From positions 1 through 64,000 of the forward strand of contig JAODTK010000965.1 of the NCBI GenBank assembly GCA_026419785.1: DNA of 64,000 nt, written 5' to 3'. Made by a program: the position numbers and the translations under genes. The notes under the pieces were generated by a model. That model was not told where the DNA came from, did no database searches, and saw only the letters and a program-made list of their open reading frames with translations. This DNA is from Sclerodactyla briareus. Taxonomy: Eukaryota > Echinodermata > Holothuroidea > Dendrochirotida > Sclerodactylidae. Below, piece by piece: positions 26,115 through 55,103 of the stretch (positions are counted from its first letter, which is position 1; each line of letters begins with the position of its first letter).

Positions 26115-27583
26115 CACAGGCGGCGCAAGCGGGGGGGGGGGGGGGACGTGGGGGACGCGTCCCCCCCCAAAAAAAAAAAAATTGACCAGATGAAAATTAA
26201 CATCAACATCGACAATTAAACTATCATTTATCGATCTGCGGACAGATGAATATAGACAATAGATTATAACAGGCCTGAATGAATGTGAAACTAGTATCCT
26301 GTCTAAGTTCAACAAATGTTGCGGTATCGAACCGTGCTGCCTGGTTTGCGATATTCGCAGCTTGTAGCGAAATCGTAATCGAATAACCGCTGTTGTAGTC
26401 CAGGCAACAATATCGGCAACAACAGTGGGACATGAAAAGATGTGCCTTAGATTAAAAATAGACAAGTGATGCTTGCATTTTTGGTCAGCTTTATGATAGC
26501 ATGACGAAAATACCCAAATGACATGTCTGTGAATGACTTTATCATATACTATCTTGCAGTAATGGCTTTAGGTGTACGTACGTTTCAAATCAAAAAAAAA
26601 ACCACCAGACAGCATGCTCATGTATCAAACTGTATACTGTAAAACGAGGGCACAACCATAGGGGGGTCCGGGGGTCATGACCCCCAACTTTTGGGAAGGT
26701 CTGCATACATAATGATTTTTTTTACACACAAAATGTTTCTCATCACTGCTTCCAAACCCCCTCAAATTACTCTTGACCCAACCTTCAGACAGTGGCTTCG
26801 CTCGCCCTCGCTGTAAAATTGCTATAATTTGCTTACAGATACGTGCGATACAACAATACCATAATCTAAAGCTTTGATTCCCTTGTTTGTTAAAAAACAC
26901 TCCATCACCAAGTGAAAAAAGGTGGTACGTACGTTTCAAAGACACCAATTTGTCCCACTTTGGTGTATTTTAAACGTGCGTAATAATTTTCGACTAGTTG
27001 GTCAACTATTGTAGAATTCGAGGAAATCAAAGTGTTAAACATGTTAATCTTTCCAGTGTTTGGTTCTCCCACCTACGGGAGTCGACCTAAACCCCTAACA
27101 GACTGCAAGTCCGATACGCTAACCAGGTGACCACAGGGGGATGGCCAAACTGGGGGCGGGAAGGGGCTACCTGGGTGAGCATCATAATTACTCAGTCTCG
27201 ATCATGGCACTGGAAATTCATCGTAATGAGGAAGGAAGTCGATTTTCTCAGATGGGGTCGGGGGTGCAAAGGTGTGATATCCCTTTCCCCGGGCTCTCCC
27301 TCAGCGGGAATTTGCTGTCTCCAACCCATCCGATATGCATTATCAATCTTCATGCATACATTTCATTAATAACTACGATTTTGGGTGGCGACTGACCTCA
27401 GTTTTATGACTGGGTACCTATAGCTCACACGCTCAGAAGTGCCTCTTTTTCGGCATCTGACGCTTTGTAAAACCAAAATTTCCACGCCAACCAATGGTGG
27501 CGCTCCGCTTAGATAGGAATACACAACAATTCATCAAAATTGGTCTGCGTCTCCCCCTAAATTGTAGGCTTCCGCCGCCACTG
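26115..27583 (+). mobile_element. 1.47-kb hAT-type non-autonomous element, copy 1
   Basis: Left terminus CACAGGCGGCGCAAG; right terminus CTTCCGCCGCCACTG, whose complement CAGTGGCGGCGGAAG matches the left end. A perfect 8-bp target duplication CATAATCA flanks it (26107-26114 and 27584-27591). No transposase frame is present. Just inside the left end is a G run, then CCCCCCCC and an A run. Internal landmarks are GGGGTCATGACCCCCAACTT (26681-26700), a tRNA-like segment on the minus strand (27064-27141), and near the right end the GC inverted motif GCCAACC...GGTGGCGCTCCGC (27485-27510). A second copy at 55104-56683 is collinear. Confidence 0.9.
27064..27141 (-). other. tRNA-like segment inside the hAT element, copy 1
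   Basis: The minus strand begins TCCCCCTGTGGTC. It then shows an A-box-like TGGTTAGCGTATCGG, a candidate anticodon arm with loop CTTGCAG (anticodon TGC), and a B-box-like GGTCGACTCCC that lacks one T of GGTTCGA. It ends GTAGGTGGGA, which can pair with the 5' end apart from one mismatch. This is a decayed tRNA or tRNA-derived SINE head carried by the transposon. It recurs at the matching place in copy 2, so it belongs to the element. It is probably not a working tRNA. Confidence 0.6.
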
Positions 27584-27784
27584 CATAATCATGTATGTCC
27601 CTTCCTGGGTGTATGTTTCCTATAGAAAATTGTTGACTTGCTCTTCTTCCAATCATATGCCCCGTGTACTGTGTACATGTCAACGAGCACAAACAATAGA
27701 ATACATGAAGTAGGGGCTATTTTGCCCTACTTTCGTGCTAAATCCCCGACATCACATACGCAATTTAATCAGAATTGGTCTCGA

Positions 27785-28090
27785 GCCCCGTCACACGGTA
27801 ACGATAACTGTAACGATAAGGACAACGATAACAATGACGATGAGTTGGAGCAGTCATACTCTAATAGCTATGAACCCCTAAAATACAGCGGCTGGAACCT
27901 GAATAAGCTGTCACGTCGAACAAACTTTTTTTACTGATTATAGTCAACACTTTCATCGATTAAGTGAATTGCATAAATTATCGCCCCCGGATCGAAAATT
28001 GCGATTGAGGTAGTTATCGTTAACGTTCCTTTGTGACCTGCACTGTCGGGTTTGTATGTGTGCGTTATCGGTTTCAGTACTGTGACGGGG
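27785..28090. mobile_element. Possible 306-bp MITE with AACGATAA subterminal repeats
   Basis: The left end GCCCCGTCACA (27785-27795) is the exact complement of TGTGACGGGGC (28080-28090). Subterminal GTAACGATAAC on the left is repeated about four times and mirrored by GTTATCGTTAACGTTC on the right. No clear target duplication was found, so the ends are provisional. The 99-codon Asn/Asp-rich open frame over the left half is explained by the AACGATAA repeats. Confidence 0.45.
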
Positions 28091-28149
28091 CCGTCACGTG
28101 CTGCATAATCCCTCTAACGCCAGGCATGGTAAAGATAAACATACGCAAG

Positions 28150-28245
28150 CCACCCACAACACACCTCGCACACGCACACACACACACCCACACACGCGCG
28201 CACATACGCACGCACGCCCACACGCACGACCACAAGCACACCTAA
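28150..28245. repeat. (CA)n/CACACGCA microsatellite
   Basis: ACACACCTCGCACACGCACA... then CGCACG and CCCACACG words. The overlapping His/Thr-rich and Cys/Val/Arg-rich open frames are artefacts of the repeat. Confidence 0.85.
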
Positions 28246-30125
28246 AAATATATGGGGCGCATTTAACAAAAGTTGATGACAAAGTTTTCCCCGAACTTGG
28301 TCAAGCGAGAACCCGAAACATGATTTGAATGGTGTGGGTCCAGTGCGCTTAACAACAATACTTTCTCATACTTCTTATTTTTTACTGACTAAGTACGATA
28401 CTGTGGCTTAAGGAAGAAAGAAAACAAGTAATTTAATGAGACTCGAGTTCTCTAAACGATTAGCCCAGAGTGTGTTAAAACAGCTGATTTTATTGAACGA
28501 CACAATATTCTAGTCCGTAAGTCATCTAAAACAGGAAAGAGGAACGACAAAAAAAAGCAAGGGGCCGGGGGGGGGACCCCCCCCGATATGTTTTATTATT
28601 TATTTATTTGGTTCTCGGGGCAATATTATATTTCTCAACTTTAATTGAATTCTTTCTCATGTTTCACCTGATATTTGTGCTTTAGTAATTTCAAGATACG
28701 ATTACTCGCTGCTGAAATTATGTCTCAGTATTTACATAGAATTCTTGCTTTTTCAGTATTTTCTAAGTTTTAGCCTCAATTAATATCAATCGTTCAATAG
28801 GAGTTGTGCAGCCAATCAAGAAACTGTTTCCAGAATATCCTGAATGTCCCGTAGTCAAATCCGTGCATGTTCGGGGACAACCTCTGCAATGTTCGGTTCG
28901 GTCTGATCGTAGGTGATGATCACTCCTGGTGTCTAATTCAGTATCGGACGTCAGTACCCTGTTGGAGGCATGAAGGCACCACGTCACCATTCAGGCTCAC
29001 CCGTTGTTAAAGTCGTAGGAACCCGGGAGGTAACCCGCAGGTCGAATGACGGTGCGGCGCGGGTGGCGGTCTACCATATTGCATGTGCGGTTTGACGCCT
29101 CACGTCAACGAGGTACGTGCAGTCACGATGATTCCACCTGGAGCCTGACGGCCTGGTATAATGAAGTGAATGAATAATGAACGGTGGAATTAATGGAGGA
29201 ATACGCAATATAAGGCAACATATATGTTGATGTAGTTTCCTTGCCACTTTCTCCCGTCAGGACAGGATGGCAACAGGTAATTAGATTTTCGAATTCCTGA
29301 ATACGTGAGATCGCTGTAGAGTGTATAACATGAGTAAACTCACTGTTTTTTTAGACGTGTGGAACACGATGGATTTAGGACGGTACGTGACCAGCAGAAA
29401 GTATACAATTGCTAGGCAGAAGACATTACCTCTTTCGTGTGTTTGGGACCTGGCTGGTTGCCTGTTTTCGGAAGAGCAGGATGTGGGAAATCATCTCTTA
29501 TATATCTTGTCATGCCTGGTCACGTGACTGACACTGATTCCGAGAAACGTTTAGTCCGAATCGAGGATGGTCGACTCTTGTGGTCTTCGGTAGAATGGGA
29601 TTCCGGAAGCGCTGGGATAATCCACCTGTTAATGAACATCATATCTCACTGACAGATATCATACATTGTCATATTTGCTTATGTTTTATGCTGTTCCTAG
29701 TTTTTGTTGTTGTTGCTGGTTTCCTTCAAACGTTGATACATTCTCAATATGATTGAGATGGAGGAACCTTATCGTATATGAAGCCTGTATAATAAATATT
29801 GAAGAACATTAAGTCGACTCGTGAAGGGGGAGCATTGAATTGACTCCCATTCGTCTGAGGTAACAATGGCAAGGGCGAGGTAACTAAGGGTCTTTCACCC
29901 CGTAGCTAGCCCGATAATAAACAAGGCAATCGCCCCAGATCTCGCTGGTTGCGCGACCGTGTTTTTTTTTTTTTTTTTACAGACACCATGAAACAATTTC
30001 ACGGGATTCCATGGTTGCTTCGAGATTTTGGTATTAGCATTTAACATAAACAGCCAATAATCAGCGGACCAATTTCAAAGTCTGATTATTTGACCTGTCC
30101 ATCAAAGCTTCGTGGAAAAGTGTGA
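28246..30125. other. No firm gene
   Basis: Mostly unique-looking sequence. Short open frames around 28763-28990 and 29321-29652 have no recognised motif. A T run sits at 29961-29977. Confidence 0.45.
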
Positions 30126-30129
30126 CCTA

Positions 30130-30620
30130 AATTGCCGAAAATATGCAAATAGACAACACTCTATATTGATTCCAGTGACCAAGTTTCTAATTGAATAATA
30201 GGAGCATTAGTGGACCGCCAATTAATGTGTTTCATGGGAATCCAAGACTGGAATTTGCACGAATGAAGCAAATTAAGAACATCAAATAACCCCCAGTGAC
30301 TCAAATCTATGTTAAAGTTATTGGGACTTGGGATTTCAAAGGCAAACCATACCAAATATCAAGCTTTGCGAAAATCGAAGAAACTTTGAAAAATATGCAA
30401 TTGACACACTGATGGCCTCCAGTGAGCGCAAAAGAGTTTAAAATGTTGGGGGCTAGCACCATACCCACCAGGTCATGAAATCGGGCCAGCTTTGAAATTA
30501 GACTATAATAAATATGCAAATTAGATAGGTTGAATGACTCCAGTGACGAATCAAGGTTAAAACAGTTTCGGAACAAAAGGTAAAATAACCACCAGCGTTC
30601 AGTACAGTACAAGTCTTATG
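30130..30620 (+). repeat. Tandem units of about 120 bp with ATATGCAAATTAG
   Basis: AATATGCAAAT(T)AGA-type boxes recur near 30141, 30390 and 30508, with a diverged one near 30255, each followed 30-45 bases later by a CCAGTGA box. Spacing is about 115-130 bases. The same building plan returns at 32.1-32.8 and 41.7-42.8 kb. Confidence 0.6.
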
Positions 30621-30694
30621 ATGAAAATATACTACTAGACTACGTGTCATAACACTTATTATATTCAATATGTCACATCAAAATAATAATCATA

Positions 30695-31030
30695 ATAATG
30701 ATCTAGTGCTTATATAGCGTTCCAGTCAAAGGGGGGGGGGGGAAAAACTTGCTCAAAGCGCTTTACAGATATTACCCTGATCATCAGTGACTCGTCACAC
30801 CCGTATAGGATGCCGCCATTTTGGCTGGTTCGCTCCCGACGCACCATGTCAGTAGTCACTTCATTGGGTCCCGGGGGACTTCTCAATAGGGCAGCCACAT
30901 ACAACGATCACGACTCTTAAAGCACATCACAAGGTACCCATTTTTACCACGTGGTGCGTGGACAATTCAGGGACATGCCTGTTCCAACGCACTGCGGAAT
31001 GTCCCGGCTTAGTCAATGGGCTCAGGGAAT
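30695..31030 (+). repeat. SINE-like 'GCGCTTTACAGA' repeat, copy 2
   Basis: CTTATATAGCG, then after a G run CAAAGCGCTTTACAGATATT, GTGACTCGTCACACCCG, CCCGGGGGACTTCTCAATAG and CACAAGGTACCC. This is collinear with copy 1 at 20.4 kb and partly with copy 3 at 61.1 kb. A GGGACATGCCTGTTCC-type stretch follows. Confidence 0.7.
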
Positions 31031-31429
31031 CGCAATCAAGGTTTGGCAGTGCTAATACACAACATAATATGTCTTGGACCGCAACGATATTGAAACATTG
31101 GAATCAAAACAGTTAGTATAGGTTCCTCAGTAATAGGATAATAACACCCTGTAGTAATAACCCAACAATAGCTGGTTTTCCTGCCAAGGTTTTTCAGCTG
31201 ATTTAGCATTCCAATACTATTTCCCAAAAGCACCTGATCACTGTAGGCTATGTTCTGGGAGGGCAAACTGGTATCCCTTTGACCATTACTGCCTATGTAA
31301 ACTTCCACAGCAGGGGGGGGGGGGAGGGGGGGAGCCAACACAAAAAGCATTATTCCCTTGCTATTCAGTTCTGTTGTTAGGATGTAATAAAACATCTGAT
31401 GATTAGCCTTTTACTTCTTTTTAAACTAA

Positions 31430-31760
31430 CTTTTATGAATCGACAGTTTCCATCAAAAATCTCATCGACTATTGAGCTCAATGCCTCAACATTCAGCCAT
31501 ATGGTCATACGGTTTAGTTTGGAGGGTTGTTGCAGAAAATGCTATGATTTTGGACAGTTTTCTTTTTTCTATAAAGTGACCTTGAATGACTTGTGATGAC
31601 ATTAACGGGTTCGATGAAAATGTAACCTTCATGGATATGAATTATGTCCAAAATGTAAGCCATAATCCTACAGGGTCACTTAGAAGGTCGTTGCAAAAAT
31701 GTTTATTATTTGGCAGTGTTGTTTTAACCTAAAATGACCTTTGATTGACATGACGGGTTG
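31430..31760 (+). repeat. Two to three diverged units of about 130 bp
   Basis: GGTTGTTGCAGAAAATGC...TTTTGGACAGT (about 31525) recurs as GGTCGTTGCAAAAATGT...TTTGGCAGTG (about 31687). Each is followed by a TGACCTT(T)GA-type box and TGACATTAACGGGTT or a variant. The style matches the neighbouring ATGCAAATTAG arrays. Confidence 0.5.
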
Positions 31761-32089
31761 ATGCTTGCCTCGATGCTGATGCACCAGCACCCAAAGCAGT
31801 AGTAATTCGAAACACACGCCCTTGATTCACAAAAGGTTATTAAAATCGACCTTTGGCCCCTTGTAACTTGAAGACCAGGTCAGGTCGAAGCGGGAGTTGC
31901 TTTCGTCTAGTAGCACAAGAAGCCCCCTATCACATAGTGCCCGAAAATTGGCTGTTTTTTATTTCTTGCCCCGTACTCCTTTCCAATACTTGACCTTTGA
32001 CCTTTTTGGACCTCTCTGAGATGTTGTCTGATCCACTAAAACCCAAAATTACCAAAAATTTCTCTACCGCACCCTAATGGCCTCATTTT

Positions 32090-32790
32090 CATCGTTATTT
32101 GCCTAACAAACTAGCAAAAGTTGTGGTAATGCTATGCAAATTAATTCATATTAATGACCTTCAGTTGACCATGACACTGTTTTTCAAATTATCGGGATAG
32201 AAGTTTGTACCATCTCCATCTCCCCAAAGTTTCATGGATTTCCACCAACTTAAAAATCTGTATAAATTATGGCAATGGACTAGTTAAATGCGAATTAGTA
32301 ACTTCAAAAAACTGATCTTTGGTGACCTCACCTCTACTGTAAAATTTATCGGGACTACAGATAAACCATCTCCACCGAGTTTCGTCAAAATCCCACAAAC
32401 GTTTGAAAATCGCAGAAATTATGCAAATTAGGACTACCTAATTAGCCATATAATGCTGGGAATCTAATCAGTTCATCTACATTCCATAGTTGGTATATTT
32501 GCCGAACTGCATCACCAATGCCTAAACCGATCAAGAGATATCCTGCACACAAGCTTCCGTCCAATTTTCATTAATATGCAAATTTATGCAAATGAGTATG
32601 GTCTTTCGGGACGAAAAGTGGATGCTCATCGACAACTCTTCACCGTACACCTCCACAAAAAGGTTGTTCTGGCATGACAGCGTTCACGGCTGAGGAGATA
32701 TCAAATCGCACGTACGGAAGACAAACAGAAATACAGACCGGGGACACCACAAAATCAAAGTGATCACTATGTCTCTCCTTGAACAAAGTT
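32090..32790 (+). repeat. Tandem units of about 125 bp with ATGCAAATTA
   Basis: GCTATGCAAATTAATTC (32131), ATTATGGCAATGGAC (32266, decayed) and AATTATGCAAATTAGGAC (32416) start successive units that also contain a GTTTCATGGATTTCCAC-like box (about 32231, 32380). A different terminal segment ends in AGACAAACAGAAATACAGACCGGGG. Possibly one end of a larger interspersed element also present at 42 kb. Confidence 0.6.
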
Positions 32791-32853
32791 CAGGCGAGAC
32801 AAAAATGTCATCTTTTAATCGGCTCATATCCATTACACCTGAGAGAAAAATCC

Positions 32854-33174
32854 TCATTTGCATGACAGCCAAGATGTATTCACTAGAATAATTAGATCGT
32901 CGACAGATTCGCCTTCATTTAACCTGTATACTGATGAAACTCGTGCTGGAAGGAGCAGGCAGCGATCAAGAATGGGGAATCTTCGGCTCTCCGCTGATGC
33001 AATCATAAAGTCACGGATCGAGTTGCTCTTCCGCGACACTGGGACGATTAGACTGCTGAGGCAGGGGGTGGTCAAGGCGAAGCTCCGAGAAGGTCGCTTG
33101 TGCGCTACATGTCGGAAATAAATTTTATATAAGAAATGTGAGTGGATCGCTTGGAAAATTTCGTAACTCATCAA
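32854..33174. other. Open frames on both strands, unassigned
   Basis: A 106-codon minus-strand frame (from 33174) and an 87-codon plus-strand frame overlap almost exactly. Neither shows a recognised domain. If the minus-strand Ig-like gene to the right is real, the minus frame could be a downstream exon, but I found no convincing splice pair. Confidence 0.25.
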
Positions 33175-33396
33175 TCGCTAAGATGCCACTCCATGGAGTT
33201 ATATCACGTGATAGTAACTTTTTATTTCAAATTTATTTACTAATTACAGTATAAACAAGAATGAAAATAACACGACGTTACGCATCGAAAGACATACAAT
33301 GGCACAAAAGTCCCACATCAAATGGACTTATGAACTGCTGGGACCTAGAGATCAAAATAGATAGATATATGCAAGGATCCATCTGATAAAACCTAC

Positions 33397-33519
33397 CTTG
33401 GTTCATTCCGTTCCATCGTGACGTCACTGCCAGAGAAGCACCGGTAAAGCGAGTTATCACTTCCCATCTTCTCAGCGGACATTGTCACGTGACAGATATT
33501 GGAGTCAGAGAGGCTGATG
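33397..33519 (-). CDS. Ig-like exon 4 of the duplicated set
   Basis: Preceded by TACTAACCTCAG (a textbook branch point and acceptor) and followed by donor CCAAG|GTAGGT, leaving two bases. It reads 'ISLSDSNICHVTMSAEKM' and 'SDNSLYRCFSGSDVTMER'. It is near-identical over the shared core to the 34.7-kb exon, but the first 60 bases of that exon are missing. A hydrophobic minus-strand stretch at 33.9 kb ('GLGFLVLTIAAGLVSGGG') lies between the two exons. It could be a membrane segment or chance. Confidence 0.5.
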
Positions 33520-36500
33520 CTGAGGTTAGTAGTCCTGATTTGATTTGATTGCTACGTGTTCAAGAAGCCAATTTGACTCTCATCATGGAACCCGAACCGA
33601 TTGTTTTTTGATCGTGGGTGACACCGGGCGACAACAGCGCCTCTCTCGTCGTTTCTCGATAGTTTAGTGCTCAGATGATATCGAGGCAGGAGTGACCCCA
33701 AATCCCCCTGCTCCCGGGGCCCTAATTTTACGTCCCCATCCGACGGACGATCAGTGAACTCCAGGATCTGACCACTTTCTCAGAACCTGGAGGAGCGGAA
33801 TATGTTCGACGCGATGCTAACAGCCGACCGACGAGACCCATTGCAAGTGCCCCCGAAACAACCCCCCCCACTGACCAGCCCAGCTGCTATAGTCAGGACC
33901 AGGAACCCAAGACCAGGAACACGCCAGTCGAACTGCACGTACATCCACTTCTGGGAGAAACTCCCGGATTCTGGGTCGGGTGTCGGCCTGTAATTAGAAC
34001 CCGTGGCCTGTTGCATGCAAAGCGACCCACTGATACCATCTCTACTCAATCCTTAGCGGTCCTTCTAATATGTGACAACCAAGATAGGTCTTGTCATTTC
34101 TTCAGCGGGTTCGCTAGGATTGAAGAAAAATGTAATTGAGGACCGCGACCACCCTGTAACTCGTTGTCAGCATTTGACAACTCCATCACTTATGGCATGT
34201 TGATTCGTTCACTCATCTGACGTCAGTCCTGTGCATGCGCGGTGGATCAACCTACAGAACTACGCCGATATATAAATCAGATTTAACTTTTTACACTTGT
34301 CCATTCACTCGTTCTGGGGATTATGTTTCAGAATTTTCCACGAGTCGCCCTATCAATACTACGACTGTGTGCGCATAGAACATCGTGTTCCCTAGCTGTG
34401 GTCGAACACTGACATTGTCAATTTTGTCATTCTACTCAAGTAAAGGAGCTTCCGGGGCAGTTACCTGTCGTTACTGAAGTTCTGACGTTCTTGAACTGCA
34501 CATGAACTGCAATTTGCTCAAGTGAATAAACCATCCAAACGTGGCAAGGATTTTTTCTTATTCTACTTACTTATTCTTGGGCCTTCGTCTCAGCGTGACG
34601 TCACAGCCAGAGGAGCACCGATATAGCGAATGACCACTTTCCATCTCCTCGTAGCAGATGTTAGAGTCAGAGAGGCTAATTCTGAGCTGGGTTGCAGTCC
34701 TGTCTCTTCTGATCTGCGCAATTCGTGTAGGTCGTGTAATTCCCGAACAGGGCCACTGCAGGATACGATGGAAAAACAAAAATAATGTAAATAAAGACCA
34801 TACCCCTCGCATTCAGCATGATTTCATTTCAGTTTTATGATTTCACGTTTCACTGAACTATTTTAATACGCGGTTCTCACGGCCCTTATTCTGGTTGTGG
34901 AGCACTATATTGTTTCTCTATAGCAAAGGAGCAAACGGTAAAGTGGGTGGTCACTTGCATCTCCTCAAAGAATGTCAGGTAGTTTATGCCATAGTCACAA
35001 ATACTGATATATACCCTACTCTATCATAGCCACACTCATAGCGATAGCGAAGGAAGCAACGGTAGAGTGGTGGTCACTTGCAATCTCCTCCTTAAAGATG
35101 TGGCAATTATATCCCCACGACACTGGAAGTGTCCGGGATATTATGGTTTTGGGTGTGTTAGCCGACTCCGTCCCCAGGCTCTGCCGCCGCCGGAAACTTT
35201 AATGCGTTAGCGTAATAACTCTTTTACACTTCATCCGATTGATCTGAAACTTGGTACACATGTCCGCCCTAGTGAAATCTCGGATGAGTTCGAAAGTGGG
35301 CATCACTGCAATGCTGGTTGCCGCTAATTTGCATAATTTATGCGAAAATTTCAAGCAATTTGAGCGAAACTTGGTGAGTAGGGACTATAGTTGATCCCGA
35401 AAAAAGGGGGAGGTCATTTTCAAATGTTCACCGAAGTCAAATTTGCGGAATTTATGCGATTTTCAAACCTTGTCAGATTTGAAACGAAACTTGGTGGTTA
35501 GGGACTAGAGTTGATCCCGAAAAATGTGGAAGTTATTTAAGTGTCAGCGGACGCGGGGAAATTTTGAGAAATATTTTATGGGATTCTCTCAATAATTTGT
35601 CATGATTGAAATGAAAACTTTTGGTGGATGGATGAGCCATTGTTCCTCACAAGGTAGAAAGTCATTCAAAAGCCCATCGTGGGGTTACAACTTTGACATA
35701 ATTCATGTGCCTATTTACTTCCATGGATTACAACAAAACTTGGTGGATGAAGTTTATCTTGTTATTATTTGAATCACAGAGACTGTTGCTGAGAAATTCT
35801 ACTATCTACTATCAGCCACATCGTAACTGAAAAGATAAAAGAAGAGCAGAGAGAGAGAGAGGGGGGTGGGGGAGAGTGGGGTGGATAGAGTGAGGTGGAG
35901 TGATTGAGTTTGCATTCTATCAGCTACAATGATCACAGTCTGCGTGAATGTTGTTGGCGAGGCCAAATTATACTCAGTGGAACTCAGGGACTTGAGTGTC
36001 CAGTACCTACCACGTATCGAATTGACACACGGATCATACACAGTAACCAAACTCTTACGATTCACTCTTCCGACAATCAAGTTTGCTAGCTGAAACACTG
36101 ATACATGTTAGACACCAGTCATACGTGGCGCAATAAACAGACGAGATTTTTTATTCCTTATTACCCTTCGAACTATAGAATATCATGTTTAGTTTTCACA
36201 GCCGGAGTACGGTCCAAGATCCCAATTCTTTTGTGAAAAGTTATTTTGATGTACGTCTACAGCATTGATCTTTTCACCGACTGGAGTGGGGGAAGGGTGA
36301 TCAGGCATGCTCTGGGTGAACATTTTTCTTCCTCTCTACCCACCTATACTATTCCTTCTGGGGGCGAGTTCCCTGTTTGTCTCCACCGTAGCAACCTACA
36401 GATCTTCAGTGTTTCGGAATGATTGTTACGTAATTTACGATTGATCAATCCTCGTATCGCTTACATAAATGTAGTAAGTTCCAATATCTATTAATGCTAC

Positions 36501-37968
36501 ACCCCCGGTATACCGTTAACAGTCGAGTGTATTAAGTGTGATGTCTGACAACAGTGCACTGGTAGACAACTAATTCCAAAGTTTCGGATATTTTTCCTAA
36601 ATTTGAAAGGTAACTCTTTTGATAAAAGTTGGCGAAATAATACTTACAGTGTTTAGTCATCGGTCGTCTCATCTGTGACCGTCCACTAACCAGAGAGCAC
36701 CATTGAAGTGAGGGACCACTTCCGCTTCCTCTGCGGCATTGTCACGTGACAGATGTTGGAGTCAGAGAGACTGGCACTATCAGGTACACATTCTCATTCC
36801 GTCCGTTGCCGAGACTACGAGGTGTCGTATTGTCGAAGTTCTCGAGCAGTTCTGCTGGTGGAAAGGTTGGGAAAATATTAGGGCGGATGTAACCTCTAAG
36901 CTTGCATAGAATTTGCTTCCGCGATCGAAACGTTTAAATCTAGATAGCATACCAAAATGAATTATCGTCTTTGGATAGCTTCATCACTCTATCAGGAGGA
37001 TCCCCACGACATACTAAGTTTACAATCTCGATTGGACCTTGGCGCTGTTGAGGAGGGGTGTCAACCCAACGTTCACAGAGGTTCTTCCTAGAGTAAGTTG
37101 CTGTTGTTGGATGTTGTTGTTGTTGTTGTTGTTGATGATCATGCTGGTGTTGTTATTCAGTGATATAGGGACACTAACCATAAAATTCTCGACGAATCGC
37201 TCCTAGTACAAAAAAAAAAAGGAAAAAGCTCTCCTACACGATTCTAAGGGTTCCCATTAGCCATTGTAATGTTTACCTGGGTTGGACTCGAATCTCCTGG
37301 CCAGCACGATGACACATCTTACTGTCAGAGGTACACCGGTGTAACGTGCGATCGCCTCCAATCGCGGGTAGAACCTTTGACTGATGGTGGTGTGAGATAC
37401 TTCTTTCAGGTGGCACATTTTGCCCGATCTTATGCGATAGGCCCGATCGAAGGAGCCATAACTGCTCACTTTGCATACCATTTGTCTTGAACCTGGTGGA
37501 ATGAACATAGAGATGTTCAGTGGTGTCTGGAAATGATAATATTGTTATACTTTACTGCCGTATTTGTCTTGTAATCCCCAGTACCGCCTGTTTGCAGGGC
37601 GTAACTCACCGGTTCCCGAATTCCCACATGTCACGAAAGGTTGGCATTGGCAGAGCCAAAAAAAAATCGTGTCACAGAATGTTAAACACACAAATCTGAT
37701 AGACTCCTGAGAGTGTTGCCCTAACTATGTTTTCCTGAATCCCATTGATTAGTGTGTCTAACATTCTGTGACATAGCCATACTGCAGGTGATTGATTTCG
37801 CAGGGTATGGTACAAAACAGCTAACGCGCCTGATGGCAAAGTGAGCCCCACCCCCCCCCCCCATCCCGCCCCATCTTGTCGTAGGAACAGTCGCCAACAA
37901 CATAAAATGGGTCGTAATTTAGAGATCGTCTACAAGAATGTTCGCAGAGTTATCTCACCCCTCCCAAC

Positions 37969-38001
<33 letters not shown>

Positions 38002-40075
38002 GATGAATACCAGTGAGTTACGCCCTGATTGTATGTCTAGGCCAGCATATGGGTGGCTAAGATTAGTTTCTCGAGTCGACCATAACATAGACCTAGCAGC
38101 ATAAGCGTTAAATACAGCCATTTTTCGAACCCTATTTTCAACAAAAAAACGTATTAAGGATAGCCTGACGAAATACCATTGACGAATAAAACCAGAAAAA
38201 AACCAAAAGGCTTAGTGGTCCTTGACTGATCCGACTAGATCAAGCTAAGCATTGTCAACGTCACATCTCATCGATTCAGCAGGGGATTATGTAGTACACG
38301 CATTATACCAGGTATGAACTACATCAATGCAAATGAAGTTTTGTTACCAAGCTGGAGTTAGCCAAAATACCATTTTCCTCAATATCCCCACTCTCCTCCA
38401 AACTGGCCCCAGTCTACACCAAAATCATAGGGTCCCCCCACAAACTCCCTGAAGTACCCTCGAAGCTGCGCCAACCATGAGCTACGGGGCGTCTCGGCGC
38501 TTGGCCCTAACCCACCAGATCCCGTTCACACAATATATGTGCCGCAATAGAATCTCCGAATATTATTCTCGTTAGTGGCAATAGTTGGAACGCGCTTCCA
38601 ACAAAGTGTTCCGTAATTGGCTTTCCAATTGTATAGATTTTAATTGTGTTCTCTGTAGAACGGTTCCGGACATCCAGGGATTATAGTCGCACATCGAACC
38701 CTAGTCTCAATGCTCTGAACTTGAACATTGGCTTATTAAATTATATCAACCTTTTCTTTGCTGTTCAGTCCAATGTATCGCCATGACTGTCCCAGAGGAC
38801 GTGAGTGAATGCTGATACAGGTTTATCGCTGTTTCTTATATCCTAAGGCAGGCGCATCCCATACAATAAGATACGACGGCAACCGGGGTTTTTCCGAGGG
38901 TATGCTGTGTGCAAGTGCCAATGAAAATGCGTTATGTTGGGTCATTGGCAATTCTTGGAAGAAAGAACACAGTATTCATCACTGTCATCATTTCCATGCT
39001 ATCAGCAACACTGACTTCCTGAGAAAGATCCCCCTAGTAGTGTTCCACCTCATTCTGCAGATTCTGACGATTCGAAAAACATAATAAATTGGAGCTGGTA
39101 ATGATTTTCCCCTTACCCCCCCCCCCCCCGTCCCTCAGAAAATATTGCTCCTTCTGCTCACACCGATGATCATCCCCGAAGCTTTGAGGCATCATATGGA
39201 GTTCTTCGTACTGGTATAATCAGATCCGCAGCTCTAAGAGGAAATTTGAGTTTGGTTTCACTCTAAGTAGAACATTTCTATTTGACATAGCAAAACATGG
39301 GTTATCGAATGAGTCTATGTCGTTTCTCAATTGTATTATACCGTATCTGCACAAGATGAGGTTCATCAAAGGGGATACGTTGATACTGAACGTCACGTGT
39401 TCGGACAACGTTCCACGACAACTTGGTTTTCATACAGTCCTGTCATTACTGGCCTCTTACGAATGCGTGGATCTGTGCCCCGCAGTTAGCAATGAAAATA
39501 GCGGCGACTGCGTAGTTTGGGCAATAGTCCTCGTGAGGGTCTGTGTATACAAGATCCTACAATGTGCGTGGTGAGTCATGCTGTGCATATAGCCATGTGC
39601 CCTTGCTCTGTAGTGAACAGTGGCACAGCACTGACACTAGGCTTTCTACGAGTGATAATATTGGTATTGATAGAGCGTCTTTCATTGAGAGGCTTCACAT
39701 AATCACCGATCGTGGAAACCAAGTTGTTGCAATTTTCGACCCAATTATACTCCTCAGAGCCCCCAGTCTGTCAGGTATCAGTGGGGTGAGCACGGGAGAA
39801 AGCGTGACATGCCCGAGATACACCGGAATTTCTATGATCTCAACGATACCTTATCAAACTCACAATCGAGCCCCCAGCCTCCCTACTTGTTTACCCAAAC
39901 AACATTTAGACCGGACTACTTTACTCTACAAGTCGGTAGTGGGAAGCAATCACGTGTGTAGGCACTTTGCTGTCTAATTACCAAAGATTGCACGATTGAC
40001 GGAGGCAAACTTACCGAACAAGGTGAATGCCAGAATGAACAGTTTGGTCATGGGAGGTCGTTTTCCAGAAGCCAT
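33397..40075 (-). CDS. Candidate Ig-superfamily gene with duplicated exons
   Basis: This is a gene model by inference, running right to left. A first exon encodes a signal-peptide-like start (40075-40015). Ig-V-like and second Ig-like stretches lie at 39.83-39.22 kb. Related exons follow at 37.5, 36.8, 34.7 and 33.5 kb, with two partial copies at 35.0-35.1 and 34.9 kb. Exon 1 ends after one base of a codon, and the 37.5-kb exon is open throughout when entered with two bases. The donors at 37277, 34571 and 33397 all leave two bases of a codon. Such a layout would suit a secreted or surface protein made of Ig-like units. Several modules need indels to stay in frame, so it may be a pseudogene or carry sequence errors. 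The last exon was not found. Confidence 0.4.
34571..34755 (-). CDS. Ig-like exon 3 of the duplicated set
   Basis: Acceptor TCGTATCCTGCAG and donor AATAA|GTAAGT bound a 185-base exon open in one frame throughout. It holds 'RISLSDSNICYEEM' and 'ESGHSLYRCSSGCDVTLRRR'. ESGHSLYRC is comparable to the D-x-G-x-Y-x-C end of an Ig fold and to EQGHMAIC of the upstream V-like stretch. The donor leaves two bases, as in the related exons. This is the cleanest member of the series. Confidence 0.5.
34905..35110 (-). pseudogene. Two partial copies of the Ig-like module
   Basis: The minus strand has GAGGAGAT, then GCAAGTGACCACC, CTACCGTTGCTTCC (35090-35045). About 120 bases on it has GAGGAGATGCAAGTGACCACC and TTTACCGTTTGCTCC (34960-34924). 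Both match GAGGAGATGGAAAGTGGTCA...CGGTGCTCC of the 34.7-kb exon. The upstream half of the exon is missing from both and frameshifts are present, so these look like tandem exon fragments. Confidence 0.45.
35106..35785 (+). repeat. Interspersed array with 'ATTATGGTTTTGG' start, copy 1
   Basis: It begins with an inverted pair, TATATCCCC ... GGGATATTATGG. Units of about 120 bases follow, containing ACTTGGTG, GTTGATCCCGAAAAA, AATTTATGCGATTTTC and GTCAGATTTGAA boxes. The same start, 'GATCTGAAACTTGG' and 'GTCCGCCCTAGTGAAAT' occur at 62.2-63.1 kb. Family unknown. Confidence 0.7.
36648..36851 (-). pseudogene. Ig-like exon 2, frame disrupted
   Basis: Acceptor CCTTTCCACCAG and donor CACT|GTAAGT are intact, but no single frame is open. 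It shares TCTCTGACTCCAACATCTGT and CACGTGAC with the 33.5-kb exon. The segment from 'SLSDSNICHVTMP' onward is recognisable before the frame is lost. The region matching 'SLYRC' is altered by substitutions and small indels. Confidence 0.5.
37095..37142. repeat. (TTG)n microsatellite
   Basis: TTGTTG repeats with one ATG and GCT interruption; downstream GATGATCATGCTGGTG continues a diverged form. Confidence 0.8.
37277..37526 (-). CDS. Ig-like exon 1 of the duplicated set
   Basis: Minus-strand acceptor ATCATTTCCAG and donor CCCAG|GTAAAC bound a 250-base exon. Two frames are open through it. The one entered with two bases (matching exon 1 phase) contains 'GDRTLHRCTSDSKMCHRAGQ' and ends in the same phase as the other exons. 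The other frame reads 'GVPLTVRCVIVLARRF'. I prefer the first, because its phase and the Arg-Cys motif recur in the exons at 34.7 and 33.5 kb, where the alternative frame has stops. Confidence 0.5.
37972..38000. repeat. C run of about 28
   Basis: The longest homopolymer in the window, with a second C run of about 12 at 37851-37862. Length is likely to be uncertain in any read set. Confidence 0.85.
38120..39200. other. Intron-like sequence, nothing defined
   Basis: It lies between the candidate Ig-like exons. It contains a C run near 39117 and a 91-codon plus-strand open frame without motifs. No repeat partner elsewhere in the window. Confidence 0.4.
39220..39410 (-). CDS. Second Ig-like stretch
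   Basis: A minus-strand frame reads 'SEHVTFSINVSPLMNLILCRYG' in short, with one Cys, then 'NPCFAMSNRNVL' and 'KPNSNFLLEL'. The pattern of a beta-strand, then Cys, then a late hydrophobic strand recalls the alternative frame of the 37.5-kb exon. Splice sites were not identified. Low confidence; the similarity is weak and judged by eye. Confidence 0.25.
39579..39831 (-). CDS. Ig V-set-like stretch, one frameshift
   Basis: The minus strand reads 'EIPVYLGHVTLSPVLTP', then after a +1 shift 'EYNWVENCNNLV', 'ERRSINTNII' and finally 'FTTEQGHMAICTA'. The order strand B, core Trp, R-x-SI and E-x-G-H-x-x-I-C fits a V-set fold. The first expected Cys is replaced (Ser-Pro in its place). An upstream AG is present at 39.83 kb, but its pyrimidine tract is poor. 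The end is undefined. The plus-strand open frame of 144 codons over the same place lacks such motifs. Confidence 0.4.
40015..40075 (-). CDS. Candidate first exon: signal peptide
   Basis: The minus strand opens with ATG and reads MASGKRPPMTKLFILAFTLF plus one base, then GTAAGTTTGCC, a strong donor. A basic/polar start followed by a hydrophobic LFILAFTLF core is typical of a secretory leader. A second ATG at residue 9 would give a tighter leader. A TATTTATGGGG stretch about 50 bases upstream is a possible TATA box. A stop codon of another candidate exon lies only 100 bases upstream. Confidence 0.5.
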
Positions 40076-40175
40076 TTATAGTCCAGCAATCCAAGCTGAC
40101 AGCGAGGTAAACTCTCCCCATAAATATCCGCTTCCATTCCTTGCCGGTACGCCTACAGGTGCTTACTGGCAAGCT

Positions 40176-40666
40176 TTATGAGGTTTTTTTACTGTGCAGC
40201 GACACTGGGTTTAACTGGGCACCTTTGTTGTCCTCTTCGTGCTCTTCCAGGAAAGCCAGAATACGTTTCCACTCTTCACCTTTCCTCCTCGGTGAACCGT
40301 ATGTTTTGCTGATCTGGTTAATTTCGACTGATGTCCGTGATACACCATCTCCTGTTTTCATCGTAGCGTCCCGTTGGTTGGTCGGTCCTAGCCTCTGATT
40401 CAACCAGAATCTTGCGCATGGTCAGGGTGGTGTCTAGGTCAACCGTTTTCATATCTTGTTTCGGCCAATGCTTTTTTCTGGACCTTGATACCGCCTGTTG
40501 CTTGGTAGTGTTTACCCCGGACGAACACGTGGTAAGAGTGTGTCGGAGCGAGACGAATGCTACAGACGATTGGTCACGAGTGATGGCCGGTTCGTTCAGC
40601 CTTCCAAAGGATCCGAGGAAGATTCACTTGACGTCGTGTTGACATCAAGTGTACTATTGAAGAAGG
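40176..40666 (-). CDS. Candidate terminal exon, product unknown, two frameshifts
   Basis: Acceptor GTATTTTTTTTAG at 40667 is strong. The frame first reads a Ser/Asp-rich 'TTSSESSSDPLEG'. About 90 open codons then lie in the next frame ('SRSRKKHWPKQDMKTVDLDT', 'EARTDQPTGRYDENRRW'), and then 'INQISKTYGSPRRKGEEWKR' and 'ILAFLEEHEEDNKG' to a stop at 40176. The composition is charged, like a cytosolic tail. Two one-base shifts are needed to join the parts; without them the first frame ends after 22 codons. No family recognised. It could end the gene upstream of the Ig-like gene. Confidence 0.35.
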
Positions 40667-40699
40667 CTAAAAAAAATACTTATAATATCAGCTAAAGAG

Positions 40700-41735
40700 T
40701 ACCTCACTGATTGATTAAAATTAATCAGTGTAGTTCACCGGTGTACAAGCGGTGTAGTCATTCATAAGGAACCGATTAGCCCGCTTTTCCTATTACTCAC
40801 TTACATCCATTTCATGTATGTGTAAGTAACGCGTCCAAATACCTACTTAGGCATCAAGTAACACTTCCACAATTGACCTTCTCCTCTTGATAACGAAGAA
40901 GAGTCACATCACGTACAAAGATTTTCCAAACACTTTAGGTTTTCTCATTGTCCTTCCCATTGGTCACCCTCTTACGATAGCGTGAACATTTCGAGCTATA
41001 ATCACACCGCCCCCGGCTGCATACGTACGTGATTTTTTTTAACTTGTCAGTTATAGGGCAAAAACAAATAAACTGGCATTTCTGGTCATGCGAGATTTAG
41101 AATAGACTAGCTGGACATTATTCCTCACTTTTGCCTTAGCATAGGTTGGTGGATCCGTTCCATTCTAATTTCTTTCTTTCGACAATCATGTTTTCCCTCA
41201 ACCATTATGATAGGCAACATCTGCATCCCACAGGAGGACGCACAATGTTTCTCAACCCCTTCACCCTTCTCTTCCCTCTCGCTCATTGCCCGTGAGATTA
41301 ATCACACTAACCCCAGGTTGATGTATAGGAGTAACCTATATCATGCTCGTAGGCTCTTGTGAACTTTGTCTACATAATGCCGTACCTTAATCCTTAATGA
41401 TCGTGTTACCGGTCGCAGGGGCATGTGTAGCATTGTCCGTGTGAGAACTGACTACCAAGAAAGAGAGATTTCTCGTCGGAACAATTGAGATCCCGGGAAT
41501 CCGAAAAGGAGTGGTTGACACACGATAGCCGGCAACTTCATCAACCTTCATGAATGTCAATACAGGTTAAGCACTTCATGCTTTAAAACACAGCATCGAG
41601 AATGATCTCGCTTTCTATTCATATAACCGTTACCAGAAGAGAAGTGATCGCCACAAGTGTATCGCCCTATTGTGCGATCAAAAACGCATATTGACCAGAT
41701 TAATTAACTCTCATGTAAAAAAAAAAATTGGGAAT
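40700..41735. other. No recognisable feature
   Basis: AT-rich sequence with no motif-bearing open frame, repeat partner or splice-bounded exon that I can support. Confidence 0.5.
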
Positions 41736-41739
41736 TTTG

Positions 41740-42790
41740 CAATAAATTGCACATCGTCGCAGTGAATCCAACCTTTAAGTAGATCGACTTCGATATTACA
41801 ATCATCAAGCAACTGAGGTAGACCATATCCCACGTTTCATGAAAATCGGCTAACCTTATTGTTCCATGAATTAAGAAAATTAAAGTCTGAATTTTTGAAA
41901 TTTTTGAAAAGTGCTAATACGTTATATGAGATACCGTTGTCATTTCATGAACATCTTCCCCAATTTCATTCTAAAAATATCGCATGCCTTCCGAGATATG
42001 TCACTTTTATTGAAACAACAGGACGCTGCCATTTTGATGAGGATTGTGATATCACCTAACACTTGTCCCTGAGATACTTCGTTCTTTATTATCATTTGTG
42101 ATCAATAATTCAGAAGATATGTGCATATATTTGACCCAATTTTCTTTGCATTATACCCTTCAAGTGATTCAATATAAAAAATGTTCATTATTGTGCACAA
42201 TCATGTGAATGATAAGTGGGAAAAAAAGAAATACATAAGTGCCAGCTGGTAGGGGTTGTGTGACATCATAATTAGACTTGTTCACAGTCTCCGGCCATCA
42301 CCTGGAGGAAAAATGGCAGCGCCCGTCTCTTTGTTTCGAACGAACTGTGCAAATTGAACTTACTTAGTGGCATCATGTGACCCTGGTTAAATGCACATGA
42401 GTGGTTCATGTGAATCGGACAACAAACAACTATGATCATAGTTCACATTAAATGGCCTGCAATGACCCTCGACTCTACTGTTAAATTTCTTGAAATGAAA
42501 TCCATTGGAAATATTATAAAGTTATCAACTTATAACCTACTTAGCATGTTTGTAGTATCGGAATCAAACAGTCTATGTACGCTCTTAATTGCTCTATACA
42601 TTGGACTACATACCAACTATTCACGATCATGCGGACAAAGCTTTCGGGATAATTCTCAGTTTAATAGCAAATTTATGCAAATTGACCGATCGTTCGGGCT
42701 AACAATTTGGGCCGCACAAAAGTATTGACCATGCACTCCACCCACAATTTCAGCATCCAAGACAGGACGTTCACGTTTCGGGAGATGTCG
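41740..42790 (+). repeat. Diverged array of the ATGCAAATT type
   Basis: Units with TTTCATGAAAATCGG, GCAAATTTATGCAAATTGACC (about 42667) and a terminal segment GACGTTCACGTTTCGGGAGAT resemble 32.1-32.7 kb (AATATGCAAATTTATGCAAATGAG followed by a similar end). Repeat spacing is less regular. Three overlapping plus-strand open frames here have no known motif. Confidence 0.45.
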
Positions 42791-42923
42791 CGACAAGCGG
42801 GAAAGTGTTTCAGGGGACTATTTATTGACCTACCTCACTAGAGATTCTTGCCTGTCGCCATAGTTACTCTCTGGGATGAGGAGGAAAGAGCCAGGTCTGA
42901 TCCGGTCTTGGTCTGGTACCAGA

Positions 42924-43162
42924 GGCAGGTTAGGACTGGTGACCAGTCGGGCAGAAATCTGAGAATAATTGAAATCATGAATATGGGAAATTATTATATT
43001 ACAGTATGCCGAACGAATGTCATTCGTCGCCAGTTCTCAGACTGTACAAGGGCAGGTTCTGATGGCGACCAGTCGGGCAGAAATCTGAGAATAATTGAAA
43101 TCATGAATATGGGAAATTATGATATTACAGTATGACGAACGAATGGCATTCGTCGCAGTTCT
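42924..43162 (+). repeat. 127-bp direct duplication
   Basis: GACCAGTCGGGCAGAAATCTG followed by GAGAATAATTGAAATCATGA occurs at 42940 and again at 43067 with nearly perfect identity. Each copy ends in the inverted motif CGAACGAATG-N-CATTCGTCG. A 95-codon open frame (42848-43135) spans both, so its C-terminal half repeats itself, but there is no sign of a protein family. Confidence 0.85.
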
Positions 43163-43604
43163 CACTAATTGATTGACAAACTTAATCCAGACATGTTTTT
43201 ACTTTCGAACACCAAAATAAATTCCTCACACTGAACGTTCATCGATAACTGTGAGTGAAGACAAACGATTCTCTCAGTTTCATGCTGTAGTTCGAAGTGA
43301 ACCAATATCTAGTGGGTGATTGCCATAGAATCAAATGATCTCAGACAACACATTTATCTAACACAACTCACAAATGAAATCACGAAACCACCAGCTATAC
43401 TGCTAGGAACCAGTACGCATATGCGCCTAGAATTAAACCTAGTCTATGATCGCGCATGCAGACTTTGCCCTCGCCCATTATCATTTATGCACGAGACTTC
43501 AAGTTCCTGCAGACCTAAATCCATTATGGATATTCCAGATTCATGCGGTCCATTGTCACACTCCACTATCTAACCTTGTTTCGCTAGTATGTTAAATATA
43601 TTAC

Positions 43605-43743
43605 TTGGCTTGTCTTATCTGTAAGATAGATGTCCAGCAAAGCGTCTATTATCTCCTCTTTTACCGTCCTGAATAATTTAAGGTCAGACCTGAGGTCAAA
43701 AGACTGGGTCAAGTAGGGTGCGGCGATCTGATATAAGGTCAAC
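43605..43743 (-). CDS. Candidate internal exon, product unknown
   Basis: Minus-strand acceptor CCATCTCTTCCAG and donor CCAA|GTAATA bound 139 bases open in one frame: 'LTLYQIAAPYLTQSFDLRSD' then 'LKLFRTVKEEIIDALLDIY' and 'LTDKTSQ'. The regular alternation of hydrophobic and charged residues looks alpha-helical and coding. I do not recognise the family. It may belong with the 44.4-kb and 40.2-40.7-kb exons. Confidence 0.35.
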
Positions 43744-44385
43744 CTGGAAGAGATGGAATTTGACATTTATACACATTTATATTAGACCCCGTTATAGTAC
43801 CCCAAATTCCTTTACGTTTCCTGCTGCGATCGTAGTGTGTAATTGTTTGACATCGATGAGTATTACATCAAGATGAGCCATCGGGTATGGGGTATATGTT
43901 TGTGTCTTCAACTCATTCCTGACAACTGGTTACAAAGACCAATGCCTCCTAACCCGCTGGCACCTCGGGGTCGTCGAAAACAATTTCTTAACAAGCCTAT
44001 AAACATAGTAACAGGTTTTGTTTGCGAGGGAAATAACCTGAAACCTGTTCGAATTGCTTTCAGTTTGATTAGGAAATTATTGTTTCTGGTTTGTTTCTCC
44101 CTGCATCGCAGTATAATTGAACATTATTAATATTATTTTTTTTTTTTTTTTCATTCTAATTATGCCAGGTGGATGATTGAATCACGTAGTACTTATATAA
44201 GCAAATATAAAAGCAGCTACATGGTGGGCGAAAGCAATTACCAATGCAGTATAGTCAATCCAGTCTACCAGTCCACCCTACCTTACATTCATGATCCTGC
44301 TGTCGCGGTTTCATCTAAATATAAAACAATTGAGACACCAAGCAATGCATCATGTAATCGAATCATTACTCTTAGTTTTTCTCAC

Positions 44386-44560
44386 CAAATATTTTCCCAG
44401 AAGGACCGTTCTGGTTCCAGTCTGTTGTTGAAAACCATCTGGTTAATGAAATACATTGATGAAGAAGATAAATAGGTGTTTTAAGTATCCAGCACAAGAG
44501 CTTAGCATCTTTCTTCACTTGTCTACCAAGTGGTAATTTGTCAGCGTCCTGAATATTCTG
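44386..44560 (-). CDS. Candidate exon, product unknown
   Basis: The minus strand reads 'NRVQNIQDADKLPLGRQVKK', then 'DAKLLCWILKTPIYLLHQ' and 'NGPSGKIF' to donor TTTG|GTGAGA. The 'LLCWIL.TP' core faintly recalls the start of the core-1 beta-1,3-galactosyltransferase fold ('VLCWIMT.P'). The following Trp context does not match well and no DDD motif was found nearby, so I do not name it. Start unclear; an AG lies near 44.56 kb. Confidence 0.3.
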
Positions 44561-44619
44561 AACCCTATTACTAAGCCGATTTTCGAATACCTCATATTGA
44601 AACAGAAAGCTCATTTCCC

Positions 44620-46280
44620 TCTAGATCGCGCTGCAATAGTTTATCACTTCTTCACAGGTCAGTATGTTGCGTCAGCCAACGAAAATCTCATTCACATGTT
44701 TAAAAACCTGTCCTCTGTAAGCCGGGTTAATCTCGCCCACGTGTGGCCAGGTACCGTGGTGAACCAACCCGCAATTCACAAACACATCACATGCCAGGAA
44801 GTCAAATCCCTCTATTATTTATCCTGCCCTGTCCCTTTCATGTGTCACCCCCCTCTTCACCCCCATCCTCACATTCATCACATTCACAGAAATAACATCT
44901 AGCTCAGAAAGAAACACCACTATTTAGGCCTACGTGAAACAGGATGCAACATCCAAACAGCCAATCTGGTTCACAGGGAACCGAACTATTCTCTATTTGC
45001 CTCGACTGGTCCCGAAGTCCCCCTCCCAGGCAGACTAATGGCCACACTCTTTCCCCCAGGTGGGTCGGATTGGGTTAATCCAGGACTGATCCAGGTGGAT
45101 ACGGATACAGAGAGGGGTATTGAAGGAAGAGCATCGTAGGTCAGGGGCGGAGCAACATCTCGCATCGGAGAGGTTCAGGGTCTGATTGTGATTGCTTGTA
45201 TATTTGATTGAATTGAATTGGAACTGTTTTGAATAAGTATCAACACTACAATAGGTTGCTTCAAAGGAGGTGGCTTTTATGTGAACCGTAAAAATATTTT
45301 GTTTTTACTTTTTGACCGTGGTGGGCGGAAAGAGAGTAAGGTAAGGGGGTGTATTTGCGTGTCGTGAATATTTCCACACTTTACTGGTGACATCCAGTAC
45401 AATAAATCATGTGCGTGTGGAGTTGAGTGGATTGGTATGAGAAGGTGGGTGAGTCAAGTGAGTGACTGAATGAGGAAGTGAGTAAGGCTACATGTGGTTA
45501 AGGAACTTTTCGAAAACTTCGTAGTCGAAGCAGCAAAACTAATATTAAGAATTTAACTAATGATCGGGTCAAATCTGAGTTACTAGTGTATACATGGGTG
45601 TGAGTGAGTGACTAAGTGTGAGGAATACTGCCGTGACATTAGGCAGGGAGTGGGGGGGTGTTTTTTTACTGAAAAGTACACGCACATGCTAATGTAATAT
45701 ACAATAGATGATGTGAACCATTATACTATCAGTGAAACGTCAATTTTTATTCACCCCGGTGACCAATTATTGACAGAGCACCGTTTGATAGAATGTAACA
45801 TGAGTATTCAAATGGCAACTGTTCAAGTGTGATACAATTAGGTGAGTGGGGGGGGAGATTGTGTGGATTACTTGGAAATGGAACAATGAACACACAGCGG
45901 TACACACCTATGTAGAAAAATACACAGCACATGTGTACTCATCACGCGTTGTGTGGAAAATACATAATGGTTGTGTGAACCGGACATACACATGTGTCGT
46001 GTAATTTCACACAAGTTGTGCATGTGATTGACACACATCAGTTTGCACCCGGTGATGGTAACGGTACTTCACGCGCTTTATTTGCAGATGTGTGTACGCC
46101 GTGTCCCCATCATGCGGCGTTGGAGCTTGTACACCATGGACCTATAGAATCTCGTGGAGAGTTGGAAGGCAGAAACATTTGAAGCTTCTTGAAATTTCAT
46201 TCAGCCTTTGAAATATCCGAGGAAATAAGCATACATGATATCGAAATTAAATGCCATCTTTCGTTACCCCTCATCTACAA
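44620..46280. other. Mostly unique, one TGTGTAA-rich patch
   Basis: No gene supported. At 45890-46050 dense ACACA/TGTGT words with CACATGTGT inverted pairs recall the 12.2-kb foldback, though arms are not clear. A short G run is at 45849. Confidence 0.4.
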
Positions 46281-46284
46281 TGAG

Positions 46285-46560
46285 AATTCGAAATTACAGC
46301 ACTCAAATCATTTATATTTTGGAGGAAATGGTGATCAGTCCGCGAATTTCCGAAAAATGTATTTGTTCCGGCCACCAGGATCTATTCACGAAATTACGAA
46401 TTTGACCTAATACTAATTTTTCAGTTTCACAGATTTTTTTCTCAATTGTTCTCATATCAGACAATACAAGATTACTACACTAATGGGTAGCTTCCTGCGT
46501 TGAAAGGAGGACGTGTAATGAAGGCTGAAATGGAGCTTTAATTGATAACCAGAGATTGCA
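46285..46560 (+). repeat. Dispersed repeat, copy 2 (partner at 7.35 kb)
   Basis: AATTACAGCACTC, ATGGTGATCAGTCCGCGAAT and AATGAAGGCTGAA occur in the same order as at 7345-7570, about 220 bases from first to last. Confidence 0.6.
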
Positions 46561-46619
46561 ATGCTGAACACATAGGAAGGGAATCTGGTCATCACTGGCA
46601 TGGATAGTAGGCCTATGGG

Positions 46620-46716
46620 CCTCATACATACATACATCATACATACATACATACATACATACATACATACATACATCATACATACATACATACATACATA
46701 CATACATACATACATA
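46620..46716. repeat. (CATA)n microsatellite
   Basis: About 23 CATA units interrupted twice by CAT. The minus-strand Met-Tyr-Val-Cys open frames are artefacts of it. Confidence 0.95.
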
Positions 46717-46719
46717 ATG

Positions 46720-54520: not shown

Positions 54521-55103
54521 ATCAGGGTGGCGCCAGCGGGAGGGGGGGGGGCGGTGGCGGGCCATGCCACCCCCCACGTCGGAAGCCCTGCTCCCCCCCC
54601 CCCCCGTCGGGGATTTTTTCCCATCTCGTCGGGGAGCCGAGTGGGTACGCTAAAAAGGACACACCCCGACGAGGGGCTTTTTGCCCCGCAGGATATATTT
54701 CCAAACTTCGTTATAGTGAAAATGCCCTATATGATTGAAGCTGAAAATTTTCGGCGCGCTTCGCGCGCCTCTATGAATAATGTCAATTTCCTCGCTCGAG
54801 TTTTAAGATCTCGTAATCATCTTCCTACAGACAGAACAATCGTGGATATATATAGGATACACAAGCCTTTATGGATATCTTCGAATGTCCCTGCAAGAGA
54901 TTAAGGTTCAATTCGTTTGGGGAGGATGCTCGTTCTGCTGCTAATCACTGTTTTGGCCTCTGTGTAGAGTGGTGTCTTTCACGACGCAAGTGCCCAGGTA
55001 TTATTTCCGTGCATTTTATTGGGAATACCTGACCCCCTTCTACTAAATAAGGGTCGTCTGATTTTGGGAGTGGGAAGCTATTGAAAGTACACATTGCTCT
55101 CTC

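Follow-up and report, generated by a model that had tools for sequence, protein, structure and literature searches.

Ig-superfamily genes carry single-domain exons in tandem. The two cysteines of the Ig domain lie roughly 55–75 residues apart, and the exons that encode the domain are bounded by phase 1 introns. In secreted cysteine-rich orphan genes, a conserved signal exon is combined with variable inner exons. Coding genes can also become lncRNAs, as Xist did from Lnx3. In one published account, some lncRNAs are described as remnants of protein-coding genes (PMC5577775).

We analysed the first 64 kb of a contig of 629,205 bases (C959) from an animal assembly of about 319 Mb (319,486,128 bases in 3171 contigs); this whole stretch of 64,000 nucleotides is called the window. 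In our own comparison with the account just cited, and as far as that account takes it, the locus described here would resemble the fossil coding genes that became lncRNAs in consisting of coding-gene remnants with the splice sites kept and the frame lost; it differs in being known from two paralogous arms of one genome and from DNA alone. With Ig-superfamily tandem-exon genes it shares a leader exon and duplicated, phase-matched exons, but it has no Ig profile match above cut-off, its cysteine spacing is short, and in the favoured frame (frame A, defined below) its donors are phase 2 rather than phase 1. It is like the secreted cysteine-rich orphan genes in its conserved leader exon and more variable inner exons, although here the inner exons differ between the arms by frame-shifting indels, beyond codon changes. 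The features are as follows, where frame A is the frame in which the initial annotation read (L)Y/H-R-C.

40015–40075, minus strand: E1, leader exon, from ATG to a phase 1 donor (GT from 40014), with a hydrophobic LFILAFTLF core
37277–37526, minus strand: E2, donor GT from 37276; its copy of the core, at about 37311–37397, is weak and divergent
36648–36854, minus strand: E3, core 36690–36773, donor GT from 36647
35044–35090, minus strand: P1a, incomplete copy of the core, no convincing splice sites
34920–34966, minus strand: P1b, incomplete copy of the core, no convincing splice sites
34571–34755, minus strand: E4, core 34591–34686, acceptor AG ending 34756, donor GT from 34570
33533–34060, no strand assigned: stretch just 5' of E5, without a counterpart at the same place in the inverted arm
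33397–33519, minus strand: E5, core 33414–33524, donor GT from 33396 (6.2 bits)
33221–33344, minus strand: EL, last exon, acceptor AG ending 33345, stop at 33278–33280 in frame A
27730–47484, no strand assigned: discontinuous, collinear inverted blocks that match C959 159178–141494 (rows of more than 250 columns, E ≤ 1e-20)

Four minus-strand blocks with acceptors and donors had been proposed. Donors were found for all four (37276, 36647, 34570 and 33396 for E2 to E5), and the acceptor of E5 (AG ending 33520) is weak. The proposed leader-like first exon with GTAAGT was borne out, as 40015–40075 encodes the leader-like peptide MASGKRPPMTKLFILAFTLF and closes with G followed by GTAAGT. A V-set-like stretch reported upstream is probably one of the two open frames of E2, and no Pfam family matched it; these two are frame A and a second frame, which contains cysteines and has phase 1 limits at both ends. 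To this exon set we add the last exon EL (from 33344), which has a clear acceptor at 33345 and is separated from the E5 donor by an intron of 52 bases. Its frame A reads RSQQFISPFDVGLLCHCMSFDA and then a stop, and AATAAA occurs after the stop at 33232–33237 and 33221–33226. The conserved edge NAG(C/T)CTCTCTGA lies 120 bases from the donor in E5, 108 in E4 and 126 in E3, all multiples of 3. The stretch at 33533–34060 may be tRNA-SINE-like. A run of 30 C lies on the plus strand at 37970–37999, with more long C runs close by.

Donors were scored with a matrix of textbook frequencies, which gave 5.1 bits for E1, 3.8 for E2, 3.2 for E3, 4.1 for E4 and 6.2 for E5. On the minus strand of the window there are 3838 GT sites, four of which reach 6 bits (the E5 donor among them) and 36 of which reach 4. 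A common codon phase had been noted for three donors; the sharing holds, and in the (L)Y/H-R-C frame it extends to all four module donors, at phase 2. Module donors are phase 1 only in the frame next to frame A, where the second codon position would be the most variable. The strongest E4 acceptor (34756) allows no in-frame join of E2 to E4 in frame A.

The cores of E5 and E3 are 81.6% identical over 87 columns (blastn E 3e-16), and those of E5 and E4 are 72% identical over 111 columns (E 1e-14). Between E3 and E4, blastn found only 23 bases (E 0.001), yet their local score was reached by none of 500 shuffles. The core TCTCTGACTCCAACATCTG, earlier quoted for three blocks, occurs unchanged in E3, and E4 and E5 each depart from it by a single mismatch. 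E2 and both partial copies (35044–35090 and 34920–34966) outscored all 500 shuffles when compared with the E5 core. With the E3 core, equal scores were reached by 52 of 500 shuffles for E2, 330 for P1a and 19 for P1b; against the E4 core the counts were 5, 0 and 0. A profile built from E3, E4 and E5 picked up E2 at E 0.002, followed by a match at 0.075 that is within the locus (35767–35793) and then by matches at 1.9 or worse. When the window was cut into tiles and both strands were searched with the E5 core, the top non-self tiles held E4, E3, the partial copies and E2. The similarity among the E5, E3 and E4 cores, together with that of E2 and the partial copies to the E5 core, confirms that exons were duplicated locally.

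In the whole assembly the E5 core has at least four matches. All of those listed are on C959, the fourth on the opposite strand at 153478–153605, and for this reason the core is not an interspersed repeat. A protein search of the genome with E5 plus the last exon gave five matches at E ≤ 10, all of them within the two arms. The same search with E2 in frame A returned E2 itself and three matches on other contigs (E 0.94 to 7.4), and copy B, the counterpart in the second arm, was not among them.

This second arm is an inverted paralogue about 110 kb away on the same contig. Its blocks, at 159.2 to 141.5 kb, are inverted but collinear relative to those of the window from 27.7 to 47.5 kb and 69–85% identical to them, and the exons have the same order in both. 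Counterparts of E3, E4 and E5 follow one another in the same order in the other arm, and E1, E2 and EL can be aligned too; E1 has one other match, at C959:148621–148789, with 89% DNA identity. Because E1 to EL are partnered in order, we infer that the module array is older than the inverted duplication. The segment 27730–31971 matches C959 twice, at about 155–159.2 kb and at 163.4–167.6 kb (74–80% identity), which means that a part of the inverted arm is present twice. The region 22.2–25.9 kb matches 123.3–126.0 kb outside the collinear order and may be a separate repeat; it includes tandem units of about 590 bases at 24441–25883 that are 88% identical and match near C959:123.3–123.8 kb.

Other repeats in the window include a direct repeat of 1.5 kb (26118–27583 and 55106–56683, 75% identical) and an inverted repeat (9710–10265 and 54533–55096, 77%), both of the dispersed kind. 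A tandem pair of about 124 bases at 42916–43164 is 92% identical and contains one open frame that repeats RNLRIIEIMNMGNY. No RNA families were found within the window. Searches for relatives gave no match in phage DNA, and in viral contigs eight stretches fit a pattern with none confirmed. Neither COX1 nor bantam gave a match, and the control for bantam gave none either. Pfam searches gave no match above cut-off for 27.7–32.7 kb (six frames), 40.6–50.6 kb (three minus frames) or 10 of the 127 listed ORFs of the window; together with 33.0–40.6 kb, considered below, this was the Pfam coverage of the window. For three module peptides, NCBIfam gave a single match, whose 12 bits fall short of the cut-off of 225.

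We also compared the modules by codon position. With six module sequences pooled and columns with more than one gap excluded, base pairs differed in 183 of 590, 221 of 610 and 291 of 615 comparisons at the first, second and third positions of frame A. Between E5 and E4 of copy A, the arm in the window, there were 6, 8 and 17 differences in 39, 40 and 41 positions (one-sided p = 0.0052). A third-position excess was also seen between E3 of copy B and E5 of copy A (one-sided p = 0.0014) and between E3 of copy B and E4 of copy A (one-sided p = 0.0095); these three tests share sequences and are thus not independent, and six of the 15 pairs were tested singly. Alignments made within the window alone gave little excess for E5 and E3 (20, 19 and 23 differences in 50, 50 and 51) and 15, 16 and 24 in 46, 46 and 48 for E4 and E3. 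In 28 ungapped codons of E5 and E4, dN was 0.114 and dS was 0.446, for a dN/dS of 0.26. Between the arms, the third-position excess was not significant for the E5, E4 or E3 pairs (p = 0.37, 0.61 and 0.13, respectively). This pattern suggests that frame A was read as codons while the modules diverged from one another, and that little or none of this constraint was left once the arms had separated.

The initial annotation had suggested decay, possibly to a pseudogene, and what marks a decayed duplicated gene is present here: a homologous copy (the inverted paralogue), frame-shifting indels and stops in exons. The predicted exons differ between the arms by 25 indels, of which four are multiples of 3 and 21 are not (30 per aligned kb); outside the exons there are 194, with 21% multiples of 3 (33 per aligned kb). 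For the exon indel count and the identities of single exons, the start of EL was two bases off and E2 was limited to 37492–37277. Among the exons, conservation is highest in E1 and EL, and E2 is 61% identical compared with 72% for non-exon sequence far from junctions. Stops occur in all three frames in E3 of both arms and in E2 and E5 of copy B.

At the splice junctions the two copies agree more closely than in the background. In nine alignable junction windows a mean of 27.4 of 31 bases is identical, compared with a background of 22.7, and a mean this high came up in 5 of 20,000 sets placed at random and in 2 of 146 shifts of all windows together. The test covered nine of the ten junctions with limits at 33344 and 37526; the E2 acceptor, which is in an unaligned stretch, was left out beforehand. 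Donor GT is kept between the arms at five of five sites, and acceptor AG is aligned and kept at three of five. Both the acceptor (34756) and the donor (34570) of E4 are kept, and at the E3 acceptor one of two CAG is absent from the other arm and one is left. Several of the 15 best-conserved windows are far from junctions (38613, 40210, 34206, 35812 and others). Such islands of identity could also have come from gene conversion between the arms.

The locus had been proposed to be an Ig-type surface or secreted gene. No I-set, V-set or other Ig-family match was found at cut-off, and in the three minus-strand frames of 33.0–40.6 kb (with X at stops) no Pfam family matched at E ≤ 10. Ten exon-frame peptides gave no Pfam match above cut-off; among their weaker matches a single one bore an Ig name, CATSPERG_Ig-like, on E4 in frame A (12.9 bits, E 0.11, cut-off 27). 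As positive controls, the I-set profile had at least 31 matches in the genome and the V-set profile at least four, with none listed on C959. PDB searches gave best E values of 0.89 and 0.13. Structure models were of low confidence, with pLDDT of 51.0 for E2 in frame A and 55.9 for E4 from a 3-row alignment. The cysteines of the frame A modules are close together rather than far apart, at 17 residues from NIC to YRC in E5 and 12 in E4, and the four module donors are phase 2; the donor of E1 is phase 1. The Pfam scans, the placement of the listed I-set and V-set matches in the genome and the PDB searches speak against an Ig domain, and an Ig identity of the locus is not supported. Two outcomes had been named as counting against the proposal: the lack of both transcript support and an Ig-profile match, of which the profile half is what we found (no match above a cut-off), and a core that is an interspersed repeat, which we reject.

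The locus is probably a once-coding spliced gene, outside the Ig superfamily, in which a module array formed, was copied by an inverted duplication, and then lost its frame as its splice sites persisted. The protein gene, known in its assembly from these two places alone and probably secreted, would originally have begun with a leader exon and ended with a short last exon, and in between would have had duplicated short-exon modules that span about 40 residues and carry two or three cysteines. Its array would have formed under protein-level constraint in frame A, after which an inverted segmental duplication would have copied the locus onto the same contig. Frame-shifting indels and stops would then have led to decay of the frame in E2, E3 and E5 of copy B and in E3 of copy A, and meanwhile the splice junctions would have been better kept than their surroundings.

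It is unlikely, although copy A could still be coding, that copy A still works as a gene for a small secreted protein of about 200 aa that contains cysteines and evolves fast, with E3 skipped or a pseudo-exon and only copy B dead. An uninterrupted chain of 203 codons does run through E1, E2, E4 (from its inner acceptor), E5 and EL, E5 of copy A is open in frame A while that of copy B is interrupted by stops in every frame, and E1 and EL are the exons conserved best. This gene would, however, need the weak inner acceptor of E4 instead of the one that is identical in both arms, and the well-conserved donor of E3 would go unused. From the E1 ATG into EL, 11 of 144 exon chains of copy A are open (the longest 203 aa), none of them with E3 or the outer E4 acceptor (34756). 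With the start of EL set two bases off, 18 of 288 chains in the two off-frames were open too; openness is therefore weak evidence of coding and could have arisen by chance. It is very improbable that the locus is an Ig-superfamily gene with exon duplication that has diverged or decayed beyond the reach of profiles. The phase 1 donor of the leader exon, the second open frame of E2, with its cysteines and phase 1 at both limits, and the sub-threshold CATSPERG_Ig-like match on E4 (12.9 bits against 27) would fit such a gene, but the codon-like evolution is in the other frame, with phase 2 donors and close cysteines; profiles have no match above cut-off, the best PDB E is 0.13, and the I-set and V-set exons of the genome are listed on other contigs. 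Hardly credible is a non-coding interspersed or mobile element with chance splice-like sites. Similar cores do occur at several places, and an interspersed repeat with a 74% copy at 62508–63057 lies between the blocks (35206–35753), but such an element is largely refuted by the confinement of the listed core matches to C959, and junction conservation and the codon-position signal also argue against it.

A more far-reaching form of the favoured once-coding gene, which we consider doubtful, is that a former secreted-protein gene with a tandem exon module of its own making lost its frame and that both of its inverted copies are still maintained for a spliced RNA, with selection now on splicing and not on protein. 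Together, these data confirm the exon duplication, date it before the inverted duplication and remove the immune-receptor reading of this locus. If the junctions have been kept while the codons have not, the two arms would be a natural comparison for the conversion of a protein gene to an RNA gene.
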